Shown here piece after piece: positions 3,359 through 28,934 of a DNA stretch of 64,000 nucleotides (within the stretch, counting starts at the first letter, position 1; each line of letters opens with the position of its first letter). Under the pieces are notes generated by a model. It was given only the letters and a program-made list of their open reading frames with translations, had not been told where the DNA came from and searched no databases. Source of the DNA: Fidelibacterota bacterium (GTDB lineage Bacteria; Fidelibacterota; SORT01). The translations under genes and the position numbers were made by a program. The stretch lies in assembly GCA_022571215.1 (NCBI GenBank), contig JACZYG010000001.1:186001-250000 (forward strand), in the 5' to 3' direction.

Positions 3359-4015
3359 TTACATTAAAAACGCAATACCTGTAAGAGAAAGTATTATTCC
3401 GGACAGTACCTCTCCGTATTTCTCAAGAAATTCAAATTTAAATTTATAAGAAGTCAGAAGACCTAATGAAGTCAGCCCGACAAGCAGAACAATCGTTGTC
3501 AGGGCAAACGCCGCCGAAGCAAGCAGCATTACAATAAAACCTTTAGCGACCGTAGCAGAAATCACCGGTAGCACTACAACACAGGGATTAAGACCCATGA
3601 TCACCGCCAAACCCCAGCCGGTTATGTTTCTTTTCTTTCCCTTAAGATTATCTTCATGCGAGTGGGGACCGTGAGAATGTCCGATGTGAAGCGCTCCCCC
3701 TTGTGATTTCAATCCCCACGCGGAATATAATATTCCGAATAATAATAGACCTATGCCTATTACCGAATCCATCTTTTCACCTATTGATGAAGCGGAAGCA
3801 ATCCCTATTGTATAACCGATAATCCCCAATACGATTGATACCACTACATGCAAGGTAGCAGACAACGCGGAAAATGAGAGTGTTTTTCTTTTTGACCAAC
3901 CTTGCGCCTTGCCAACGAGTACGAACGGTAACCAATGATCCGGAACGACCGCATGAAAAAACGCAGTTGCGGAGGCAGATGTTATAAGCACTATACCGGC
4001 GTCAGGCAACTCCAT
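3359..4015 (-). CDS. NicO/UreH-like metal transporter, six-helix membrane protein
   Basis: A 218-residue polytopic membrane protein. The first helix carries the histidine/aspartate motif FHAVVPDHWLPF; further hydrophobic segments follow at about 50-75, 82-100, 130-155, 155-185 and 198-217. Between the two halves is a His-rich loop (HIGHSHGPHSHE, about residues 111-122), as in nickel/cobalt transporters of the NicO/RcnA/UreH group. The second half has GLNPCVVVLPV. These features support movement of a divalent metal, most likely nickel or cobalt, but direction and ion cannot be read from the sequence. Its ATG overlaps the stop of the upstream nucleotidyltransferase gene by one base (TAATG), so the two are translationally coupled although their functions look unrelated. 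Confidence 0.65.
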   Translation of the reverse strand: MELPDAGIVLITSASATAFFHAVVPDHWLPFVLVGKAQGWSKRKTLSFSALSATLHVVVSIVLGIIGYTIGIASASSIGEKMDSVIGIGLLLFGILYSAWGLKSQGGALHIGHSHGPHSHEDNLKGKKRNITGWGLAVIMGLNPCVVVLPVISATVAKGFIVMLLASAAFALTTIVLLVGLTSLGLLTSYKFKFEFLEKYGEVLSGIILSLTGIAFLM

Positions 4016-25016: not shown

Positions 25017-26051
25017 ATGCGGAATCGATTCAGTAATTATATCGTATCCATTTTCATATTATTAACCCTGCTGTTAAGCGCTTGCGCCAATGAGGAATTA
25101 TCCACTTCAAGAGATTTTGACTTTGCTTTAGTAATTCACGGTGGAGCAGGCACTATAAAAAGAGAATCCATGAGCAGCGATACAGAGGCGGAATACAGAG
25201 CAAAATTACTTGAGTCTTTGCAAAAAGGTTATAGCGTGCTCGAAAACGGAGGTTCGAGTCTCGATGCCGTAATAGCCGCAATAAAAATAATGGAAGACTC
25301 TCCACTGTTCAATGCAGGTAAGGGCGCGGTATTCACTCACAACGGATTGAACGAACTCGATGCTTCAATTATGGACGGTAAAACATTAAAAGCAGGCGCG
25401 GTCGGCGCGGTGAGAAATGTTAAAAACCCAATAGAGCTCGCTCGTCTCGTGATGGAAAAAACATGGCATGTATTACTTATAGGAGAGGGAGCTCGGCTTT
25501 TCGCTGAAGATCAAGGAGTTGAGCTTGTTTCAGACGAATATTTCTTTACCAAAAGAAGGTGGGATTCTCTTCAAAACGCGCTTGAGACAGAGTCAAGGAA
25601 AGATCAATCAGGGCTGTCTATTGAATCATACAGTCATTTGGGTACAGTCGGAGCGGTGGCGCTTGACAAAAACGGAAACCTCGCTGCGGGTACGTCAACC
25701 GGCGGAATGACCAATAAATTATATGGTCGGGTTGGAGACTCGCCGATAATTGGAGCTGGAACTTATGCTAATAATAAAACCTGCGCAGTTTCCGCTACTG
25801 GACAAGGTGAGTATTTTATCAGAGGCATGATTGCTCATGACATATCCGCTATGATGGAATATAGCGGGAATAGTCTTGAAGAAGCCTCACATGAGGTAAT
25901 ACTGAATAAACTGACTGCCATGGGAGGCACGGGAGGAGTCATATCAATTGACTCTGACGGCAACATATCAATGCCGTTCAATACATCCGGAATGTACAGG
26001 GCGTATCACCGGGCGGGTGAAGAACCGGTCGTAAAGATATTTAAAGACTAA
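25017..26051 (+). CDS. isoaspartyl peptidase / plant-type L-asparaginase, lipoprotein
   Basis: 344 residues preceded by a near-perfect AAGGAGGT. Residues 1-23 are a lipoprotein signal peptide (LLLSAC, Cys23). The Ntn-hydrolase fold is shown by VIHGGAGTI (about 39-47), SSLDAVIAAIKIMEDSPLFNAGKG split over 80-104, and the autocleavage site HLGTVGAVA with the nucleophile Thr210. After self-processing the enzyme hydrolyses isoaspartyl dipeptides or asparagine. Being a lipoprotein it acts in the periplasm or at the surface, on peptides released by the many proteases here. The convergent gene ends directly at its stop: the two stop codons touch (26049-26054). Confidence 0.9.
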   Translation: MRNRFSNYIVSIFILLTLLLSACANEELSTSRDFDFALVIHGGAGTIKRESMSSDTEAEYRAKLLESLQKGYSVLENGGSSLDAVIAAIKIMEDSPLFNAGKGAVFTHNGLNELDASIMDGKTLKAGAVGAVRNVKNPIELARLVMEKTWHVLLIGEGARLFAEDQGVELVSDEYFFTKRRWDSLQNALETESRKDQSGLSIESYSHLGTVGAVALDKNGNLAAGTSTGGMTNKLYGRVGDSPIIGAGTYANNKTCAVSATGQGEYFIRGMIAHDISAMMEYSGNSLEEASHEVILNKLTAMGGTGGVISIDSDGNISMPFNTSGMYRAYHRAGEEPVVKIFKD

Positions 26052-26888: not shown

Positions 26889-27000
26889 TAATTTAAAAAT
26901 ATTTAAAATGTTTCTGCCTCCACTTCATTATAACTCAGCAGTCTGATATAAATGTTCAATTCAGTAACGGCTCGCAATATAAACCTCAATTCACAAATAA

Positions 27001-27025
27001 AAAAGCCCGCCAACGGCGGGCTTTT
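27001..27025 (-). terminator. intrinsic terminator for the repeat-protein/small-peptide unit
   Basis: AAAAGCCCGCC-AAC-GGCGGGCTTTT forms a perfect 11-base-pair stem with a 3-base loop. Read on the minus strand it is followed by a T-run (26999-27004) and lies 22 bases after the stop of the 34-residue gene. Confidence 0.85.
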
Positions 27026-27047
27026 GTCATTGAATTCAAGTTATATT

Positions 27048-27152
27048 CTAAACAGGTACTGGAACTTCATGAAATATTTCCGGTTCTCCGCCGAGAGCGG
27101 TTCCTACTGACAGAAGCAAGATTATCAGCAGAAATAGTAGCTTTTTTTTCAT
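27048..27152 (-). CDS. 34-residue putative secreted peptide
   Basis: A very short frame starting at an ATG with GGTGG ahead. It encodes MKKKLLFLLIILLLSVGTALG (a textbook signal peptide: three Lys, a long Leu/Ile core and an A-L-G cleavage site) followed by only 13 residues, GEPEIFHEVPVPV. It lies 24 bases downstream of the repeat-protein gene on the same strand and directly ahead of a strong terminator, so it is part of that transcript. The function is unknown; it could be a secreted peptide, a small lipoprotein-like factor, or a remnant of a longer gene. I consider it real because of the signal peptide, ribosome site and terminator placement. Confidence 0.55.
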   Translation of the reverse strand: MKKKLLFLLIILLLSVGTALGGEPEIFHEVPVPV

Positions 27153-27176
27153 AATACCACCATGTTTTATTCGTTA

Positions 27177-28934
27177 TCATTCAACCACCCTGACTGTAAT
27201 CCCCCAGTTGAACGGATCGTATGGTTGCGACGCGTTCCAGTCATTAAACGAATGTGAACCATCGGTTTCGTATCGTACTTCATACTCTCCCGGCTCTAAT
27301 ATGATGGTACCGTCAAACATTCGATTTTTTTTCGCTCCTCCTGCGTGTTCTGTAATTCTGTACGACATCTCCCAAATAGTTTTCCCCGAATGAAGATCTT
27401 CAATCCACCCGTAATCATACATCTGTCCTCTGCTTCCTTCTCCAATCGCGTATATTCGCACTCTTTTCCGCTCATTCAACTTAAAACGAGCGGAGATCAT
27501 ATCATTATTACCCACGTTAATAACGCTGGCTAAAATATTTTCATCTTCCTCTTCTTCATATTCTTCGACATCGTTTGCATCAAATTTTGAATCAATTGAA
27601 ATCAATCTCAAACCCCACGCCTTTTGATCGGATGGAGGCGATGAATTCCACATTCGATAAGAATGCGAGCCGTCAGTCAGATAATACGCAATGTAATTAC
27701 CTTTCTTGAATCTAACCACGTCGTCGAATACTCTGTTCTTTTCCGCTCCGCCGGCGTGCTCCGTATCTCTGTACCTCATTTCCCAAACCCGTCCCCTGTC
27801 CGACGCATCGATTATCCAGCCGTAATCGGCCATCTCTCTGTTTACTCCCTCTCCAACGCAGTATATGTTCAAGTCCATATCTTTTTTAAGTTTGAACCCG
27901 TACGAAACTACTTCGCTGTTTCTCACTTTAGTCAGATTAACCACTGTTCTTTCTTTGAAAAATTTCTCGCTATCAAACATTTCTACATTCTTCCTGTCCT
28001 TGCGGTTTTTCAAATCGACCCTGATACCCCAAAATTCGGGATCGTAAGGAGGCTGGGAGTTCCATCTTCTCGGCATATGCGAATCATCCGTAGAATACAC
28101 GACAGAATACTTGCCCTTGGGAAGTGTCAGAGTGCTTCTTTTCATGCGGTTCTTCCTTGCCCCGCCGGCTTCCTTAGATTTCCTGTATGATAATTCCCAA
28201 ACGCGCTCTCCTGTAAGCAGGTTTTGTATCCAGCCATAATCGTGATTTCCGTTTCTTGTAAGCTCTCCTATAGCATAGACCTCAAGCTCAACGGTTCGGT
28301 TGGCAATAAATCCTACGCTCTTATATAAATTCTTTTTGTCCCCGCTAATCCAAATAAACGCATCGTCTTTTTGCTTTTCTTGCAGCGTATAAACATCTTC
28401 TCTGCTTAGTGTTTCACCATCGCCTTTTATAACTATTTTAAATTCCCTGTACAGATCCCACATCTCTTTCTTGTAGTGATCACGATCTCCTCTAAACCAT
28501 CCCTTGAAAAATGAACTAAGAAATTCTCCTAAATCATCAATGTTGAAATCCGAGAATGACCTGAGAGGATAAGAAGCGTAATACACTTCATAAACACCCT
28601 TCGGAAGAGAGACATCATCAGAAAACTCTAACAATCCCCGGCTTCTTCGTTTTGAATCAGCTTCGGAAAGATCCCAGACAACCTCTCTCGTATCTGCGTC
28701 AAGAATCCAACTATTACCTAAAAGTACTCTGTTTCCGCCATCTCTGTAATAAAATCCAACTGCATCAATTACTATATCTTGATCTGAGTTTAAAACAAAT
28801 CCTTCCATCCTAACATCTTCGGGGTATATATCGTCTATCTCTATAAGAGATTTCTGACCGAATAATGAAATTAAATTGAATGAAAGAACGAACAGCAACA
28901 GTGATATAGTACTAAATATGGTAGGTTTGGTCAT
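27177..28934 (-). CDS. secreted protein with four tandem ~100-residue modules of unknown family
   Basis: 585 residues. A signal peptide ends at about residue 26 with Gln at +1 (SLFGQKS). Four related modules follow: a divergent one at about 41-170, then 205-306, 340-445 and 475-585. The last three share the order VYAIGEG, DYGWI, GxxVWExxYR, HAGGAxKNR, a Gly/Asp-rich turn, YxTDGSHS and WNSxPPxDxxxWGI. Each looks like a small beta-sandwich, with a likely aromatic surface from the conserved Trp. A Glu/Asp-rich linker (EEYEEEEDENI, about 457-467) precedes the last module. I do not recognise the family. The number of copies and conserved Trp/Asp/His pattern suggest a binding role, such as carbohydrate or protein recognition at the cell surface. 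Confidence 0.8.
   Translation of the reverse strand: MTKPTIFSTISLLLFVLSFNLISLFGQKSLIEIDDIYPEDVRMEGFVLNSDQDIVIDAVGFYYRDGGNRVLLGNSWILDADTREVVWDLSEADSKRRSRGLLEFSDDVSLPKGVYEVYYASYPLRSFSDFNIDDLGEFLSSFFKGWFRGDRDHYKKEMWDLYREFKIVIKGDGETLSREDVYTLQEKQKDDAFIWISGDKKNLYKSVGFIANRTVELEVYAIGELTRNGNHDYGWIQNLLTGERVWELSYRKSKEAGGARKNRMKRSTLTLPKGKYSVVYSTDDSHMPRRWNSQPPYDPEFWGIRVDLKNRKDRKNVEMFDSEKFFKERTVVNLTKVRNSEVVSYGFKLKKDMDLNIYCVGEGVNREMADYGWIIDASDRGRVWEMRYRDTEHAGGAEKNRVFDDVVRFKKGNYIAYYLTDGSHSYRMWNSSPPSDQKAWGLRLISIDSKFDANDVEEYEEEEDENILASVINVGNNDMISARFKLNERKRVRIYAIGEGSRGQMYDYGWIEDLHSGKTIWEMSYRITEHAGGAKKNRMFDGTIILEPGEYEVRYETDGSHSFNDWNASQPYDPFNWGITVRVVE

Follow-up and report, generated by a model that had tools for sequence, protein, structure and literature searches.

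The four-module gene and a deleted gene downstream of it

We analysed a stretch of 64,000 nucleotides from a Fidelibacterota bacterium (the window; GenBank assembly GCA_022571215.1, contig JACZYG010000001.1, positions 186,001 to 250,000). On its minus strand, at 27177..28934, an open reading frame encodes a secreted protein of 585 residues made up of four modules, with orthologues in all five genomes of the family (this one included) and in other groups. The N-terminus carries what reads by eye as a signal peptide (residues 1-27, approximately; 28854..28934), i.e. a hydrophobic stretch ending in LFGQ and lacking a lipobox cysteine, and on this reading of the export signal the protein is predicted to be extracytoplasmic. 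A divergent module 1 (residues 29-172; 28419..28850), recognised by a weak profile match (E 1.1e-9) and by its strands in the full-length structural model, is followed by three canonical modules of about 120 residues each, also on the minus strand: module 2 (residues 190-309; 28008..28367; profile E 2.0e-44), module 3 (residues 329-448; 27591..27950; E 1.6e-50) and module 4 (residues 466-585; 27180..27539; E 9.9e-52). The first-pass annotation had described one set of motifs as common to all four modules. In the aligned protein parts, DYGWI, (H/E)AGGAxKNR, D(G/D)SH and WG(I/L) are indeed common to modules 2-4, but module 1 has none of the four and keeps only the framework.

Next to this gene on the minus strand is a 34-codon frame (27048..27152), which had been proposed to encode a secreted partner of the four-module protein. 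It has the ribosome site, signal peptide and terminator hairpin on which that proposal was based, but all of these are remains of a larger gene. In the corresponding locus of MT.SAG.3 (L019), a gene of 754 residues lies 19 bp downstream of the four-module gene and opens with this ribosome site and signal peptide; its product is identified by DUF5916 (PF19313) and CBM9_1 (PF06452) and is separate from the four-module protein. The window aligns to L019 at 1032-1353, then at 3496-3587 and then from 5413 onward; missing from it are about 2.1 kb of the DUF5916 gene and the amidohydrolase gene that follows. What the window keeps is the start of the deleted gene (its first ∼24 codons), fused in a different frame to its last codons and terminator. 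The 3' remnant (26997..27092, minus strand; ending in KFQYLFRI and the stop) matches L019:3496-3587 in blastn at 77.8% identity, the old C-terminus (YFMKFQYLFRI and the stop) can be read in another frame of the window, and the terminator, a hairpin GCCCGCC..GGCGGGC followed by a run of T (27005..27021, minus strand), is the same hairpin that stands behind the intact L019 gene.

Among the relatives, both L017 and L019 have a long gene in place of the 34-codon frame, and across the five genomes of the family the DUF5916 gene is intact in one, interrupted by an in-frame TGA in one (G004) and carries differing internal deletions in three, as if the gene behind the four-module gene had been lost repeatedly. 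Other junctions are found in MT.SAG.2 and G003, and the junctions of L002/L007 and L003 differ; the L002/L007 (MT.SAG.2) deletion could be a chimeric or amplification artefact, because two of the relatives are named as SAGs. When conservation of the short gene was checked, the intact locus held the 754-residue gene and other relatives carried different remnants. Judged by these sequence comparisons, the 34-residue frame is a deletion scar and is not supported as a gene. A partnership between the four-module protein and a secreted peptide of 34 residues is very hard to credit, despite the presence of a ribosome site, signal peptide and terminator, since the frame consists of the joined ends of a deleted gene.

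Remnants of DUF5916 genes were also seen elsewhere. Downstream of the four-module gene in L018 (G003:C123) the last DUF5916 codons (KFQYLFRI) are present as two consecutive copies some 100 bp apart. Contig C6 of the window's own genome carries a second, broken copy covering the first ∼400 residues (79% identical), near a frame labelled by eye as serine-resolvase-like; this locus, L110 (G000:C6:1-3607), also holds a piece of the 3' end of a four-module gene, with ∼71% DNA identity to L019, and represents either a fragment that was transposed or contamination by a relative. We found no paper on DUF5916.

A module family with a fixed 1+3 order

Searches of Pfam, NCBIfam and PDB sequences returned only sub-threshold or spurious rows for the four-module protein and its modules, which bears out the initial impression that the family was not a recognised one. 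In NCBIfam, RNA polymerase A'' appeared with E 0.00036 and 18.7 bits, where the cut-off is 783; this row and a similar one for IolD each matched one of ten members, and both were dismissed. The titles and abstract openings by which the literature was judged contained no description of the module family. The family is real, conserved and uncatalogued, i.e. it has no curated model in the catalogues searched.

With the full protein as query, six of 61 genomes matched (the window's own included), among them all five of its family. A full-protein search of named genome records gave ten loci, belonging to Marinimicrobia MT.SAG.2 and MT.SAG.3, to Ignavibacteria, Caldithrix, Bacteroidetes and Zixibacteria MAGs, to three KSB1 MAGs and to an unclassified bacterium. 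Using a module profile (A1) built from 30 modules of ten proteins, we found the module in 8 of 245 genomes of the window's own phylum and in 32 of 63 genomes of the class of a KSB1 genome. For the class to which the Ignavibacteria MAG belongs the count was 62 of 294 genomes sampled, and for the phylum that includes the Zixibacteria MAG it was 80 of 132 genomes. In the last three groups most genomes with a match carried exactly four modules (21/32, 47/62 and 73/80, respectively), the others having 1-3, 5, 6, 8 or 9. No relative of the four-module protein was found in the viral contigs, plasmids and phages searched.

The order of the modules is highly regular. Among 40 open reading frames that are 480-760 residues long and contain the GG..KN motif two or more times, 39 have three strong modules, and all 39 proteins selected for having three strong modules had exactly one weak module before these and none after, a pattern that is far beyond chance. 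When 156 modules and five sensor modules (described below) were placed in a FastTree tree, the modules 1 grouped together (39/39, support 0.75), as did the modules 4 (39/39, support 0.90) and the sensor modules (5/5), while modules 2 and 3 grouped only partly (24/39 and 22/39). The clean grouping of modules 1 and 4 indicates that the module order is old and has not been freely reshuffled.

We examined residue conservation in the 122 distinct canonical modules that remained once rows exceeding 25 gaps had been removed, numbering residues as in module 4. E34, D42, G67, G68, N72, Y86, D93, H96, P106 and G113 were invariant (122/122 for E34, D42, G67, G68, D93 and H96), N102 was present in 121/121 and K71 in 121/122, and W45, W56, W101 and W112 were conserved. 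The spacing between E34 and D42 was 8 in 84 of 117 canonical modules, other values being 7, 9 and 10, with 23-24 in two modules. There are no conserved cysteines, and 13 of 39 proteins have no cysteine at all after residue 60. Module 1 departs from this pattern in a selective way. In 39 full-length proteins, each of modules 2-4 retained E34 and D42 without exception (39/39), and D93 and H96 were kept there in 37-39/39; in module 1 of the same proteins E34 and D42 were found in 0/39 each, D93 in 4/39 and H96 in 3/39, although the tryptophans W45 and W56 were both kept in 39/39. As the polar set is lost while W45 and W56 are kept, module 1 appears to be a copy without the site, and the core appears separable from the site; W45 and W56 look like core residues for the same reason.

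The module also occurs inside propeller sensors. All 13 large module-bearing frames tested against Pfam contained Reg_prop. L082 and L083 (two modules each) and L084 (one module) combine Reg_prop with Y_Y_Y, HisKA_3 and HATPase_c, and each lies beside a LuxR-type response regulator; the sensor frame of L050 has a SpoIIE output, and nine further frames, which are partial because they end at locus edges, had Reg_prop in every case. E34, D42, G67, G68, K71, N72, D93 and H96 were each present in 5/5 of the sensor modules counted. These two-component sensors carry the module in the propeller region, whereas the window protein has neither a propeller nor an output domain.

Predicted fold and comparison with known domains

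An AlphaFold2 model of module 4 (30 sequences) was of high confidence (mean pLDDT 96.5, pTM 0.89) and predicted a beta-sandwich of eight strands. The full-length model (10 sequences; window 27180-28850; pLDDT 84.3) consisted of four sandwiches in succession; the stretch that follows module 1 (model residues 97-123) was poorly modelled. For module 4, two Foldseek rows had E below 0.001, p24delta1 GOLD and the ColG collagen-binding domain, and CBM6-type chains were also among the rows. In VIA-align the best single match was PPC 5sv5 (Z 8.3, rmsd 2.9, 91 aligned), followed by the Kremen CUB-containing chain 5fws (Z 8.1, rmsd 2.5, 92 aligned), C1s CUB1 (PDB 1nzi; Z 7.8, rmsd 2.6, 92 aligned) and GOLD 5azy (Z 7.5, rmsd 3.8, 88 aligned). 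The PPC, CUB and GOLD scores are tied at Z of about 8 or less, and the modelled likeness may reflect a common arrangement only. With the full-length model as query, the top Foldseek row was a ciliary central-pair chain (7sqc_1A, E 9.1e-7, TM 0.26), and another ciliary chain, 7n6g_6M, gave Z 7.3 over 311 residues at 7.7 A.

Profile searches did not place the modules in any of these families. PPC (PF04151) and ColG collagen-binding domains, the best single fold match, are secreted bacterial domains; the four-module protein has no appended peptidase, and PF04151 gave no row for the 30 modules at E up to 1 and none in the window's own genome at E up to 0.001. GOLD domains (p24/emp24) are beta-sandwiches, as the module is predicted to be, but p24 proteins are eukaryotic trafficking proteins, and the GOLD/EMP24_GP25L profiles gave no row for the 30 modules at E up to 1. 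CUB domains (PF00431) are also beta-sandwiches, and many CUB chains aligned to the modelled module with Z up to 8.1, which can be the level of a common arrangement. However, they have conserved disulphide cysteines, which the module does not, and the AGG..KN loop of the module was not seen in the CUB sequences compared. PF00431 gave no row for any of the 30 modules at E up to 1 and found nothing in the six family-carrying genomes at E up to 10, and hhalign of 117 canonical modules gave a probability of 0.4% against a CUB set of only four sequences, which makes this a weak test. Membership of the CUB family by sequence was rejected on these grounds.

The CUB comparison nevertheless hints at a likeness of the putative site. 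In C1s CUB1 (PMC4222235), Glu45, Asp98 and Ser100 are contacted by a lysine of the ligand, the calcium site requires Asp53, and altering Glu45, Tyr52 or Asp98 changes binding. The three invariant acids of the module and a common serine have a spacing similar to that of Glu45, Asp53, Asp98 and Ser100 of C1s: the prevalent E34-D42 spacing of 8 equals that of Glu45 and Asp53, D93..S95 resembles Asp98..Ser100, and the spacings of E34, Y/F41, D42, D93 and S95 are mostly like those of the C1s set, although D42 and D93 are further apart (51 residues, compared with 45 in C1s). These polar residues also lie at similar turns in the strand order, the strands of the module being taken from the AlphaFold2 model and those of C1s judged by eye. 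Because profile comparison gives no support for CUB homology, we treat the likeness as an analogy.

Gene neighbourhoods and possible function

Neighbouring genes were compared in 65 loci with wide flanks, selected from the loci found. An Omp85/DUF5686-like barrel gene was present in 11 of the 65, across three groups, on the same strand in all 11 and within 400 bp in eight (members were Pfam-checked except L013, which clusters with L014); it was missing from the other 54. An Asparaginase_2 neighbour was present in seven loci (Pfam on L189, L190, L196 and L202), on the same strand and 26-156 bp away in five Ignavibacteria-class loci and 3-5 kb away in the Marinimicrobia loci L017 and L019. In the window, Pfam and the neighbourhood clusters place an Asparaginase_2 gene at 25017..26051 on the plus strand, and M28 and M16 peptidases are also found on the window side; TldD/PmbA-type genes occur in seven Zixibacteria loci (one member checked). 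Weakly, these neighbours suggest a link to the outer membrane and to peptide breakdown. The segment 22541-34248 of the window, with a zinc-binding dehydrogenase, Aminotran_1_2, Asparaginase_2 and the M28 and M16 peptidases, looks like a run for peptide or amino-acid breakdown. A response-regulator cluster (20/65 loci; same strand in 9 of its 36 members) and a sigma-factor cluster (13/65 loci, mixed orientation) were judged uninformative. In three KSB1 loci a PglZ domain fused to a response regulator lies downstream of the four-module gene (L096:3675-5240, L090:7509-9089 and L094:7315-8265; checked in L096 only).

The explanation we favour, to which we would give an even chance, is that the protein is an extracytoplasmic ligand-binding protein of four tandem sandwiches of the PPC/CUB/GOLD class, with a putative site in each of modules 2-4 and none in module 1. 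The polar set carried by each of these three modules (E34, D42, G67-G68, K71-N72, D93 and H96) would be the candidate binding site, present in three copies in a fixed order, and by analogy with the CUB site it may hold a divalent cation. The ligand could be an envelope or extracellular peptide or a glycan, and capture or sensing would take place at the outer membrane, where the Omp85/DUF5686 or DUF5916 barrel neighbours would sit; the 34-residue frame would have no role. The earlier suggestion of a surface recognition system survives in part, in that a recognition role is plausible for an extracytoplasmic modular protein, without the 34-residue partner.

A structural role in the envelope is possible though unlikely, i.e. 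the protein could be a spacer, a scaffold or an assembly factor for outer-membrane barrels, with the invariant residues holding the fold or the contacts between modules. The fixed 1+3 architecture would fit a defined assembly, and the same-strand barrels in 11/65 loci and the DUF5916 gene in Marinimicrobia point in the same direction. However, the model gives module 1 the same sandwich although it lacks the polar set, and its core residues are kept, so that the set is seemingly dispensable for the fold; in sensor proteins, moreover, modules bearing this set are found singly or in pairs. We consider it improbable that the modules are CBM-like lectins for polysaccharides. The beta-sandwich, the CBM6-type chains among the Foldseek rows, the four conserved tryptophans and matches to AMPK1_CBM (PF16561; E 0.03-0.12) would all be in keeping with such lectins, but the AMPK1_CBM matches are far below threshold (15 bits against a curated cut-off of 26.8), W45 and W56 look like core, and no glycosidase was found among the Pfam-checked neighbours, which are a selection.

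A more specific proposal about the site, drawn by analogy and in our view a long shot, is that the module corresponds, in bacteria, to the CUB domain of the calcium-binding type. E34, D42 and D93 (with S95) would form a cation-stabilised acidic pocket gripping a basic side chain, which could belong to an extracellular protein ligand or be that of the near-invariant K71 in an adjacent module. If this were true, the protein, with three such sites in a fixed order, would act as a polyvalent receptor dependent on Ca2+, and in the propeller sensor kinases of the same phyla this pocket would be the part that reads the signal.

The deleted DUF5916 gene carries a caution for the annotation of short open reading frames, as what looks like a perfect small gene for a secreted product can consist of the two ends of a large gene that has been lost. 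For the extracytoplasmic ligand-binding protein that we favour, module 1, as a copy without the putative site, would provide a natural negative control. The module is common in several bacterial groups that have been little studied and are known mainly through environmental genomes, and a ligand found for one of its two forms, such as the four-module protein, would suggest what the propeller sensors read.
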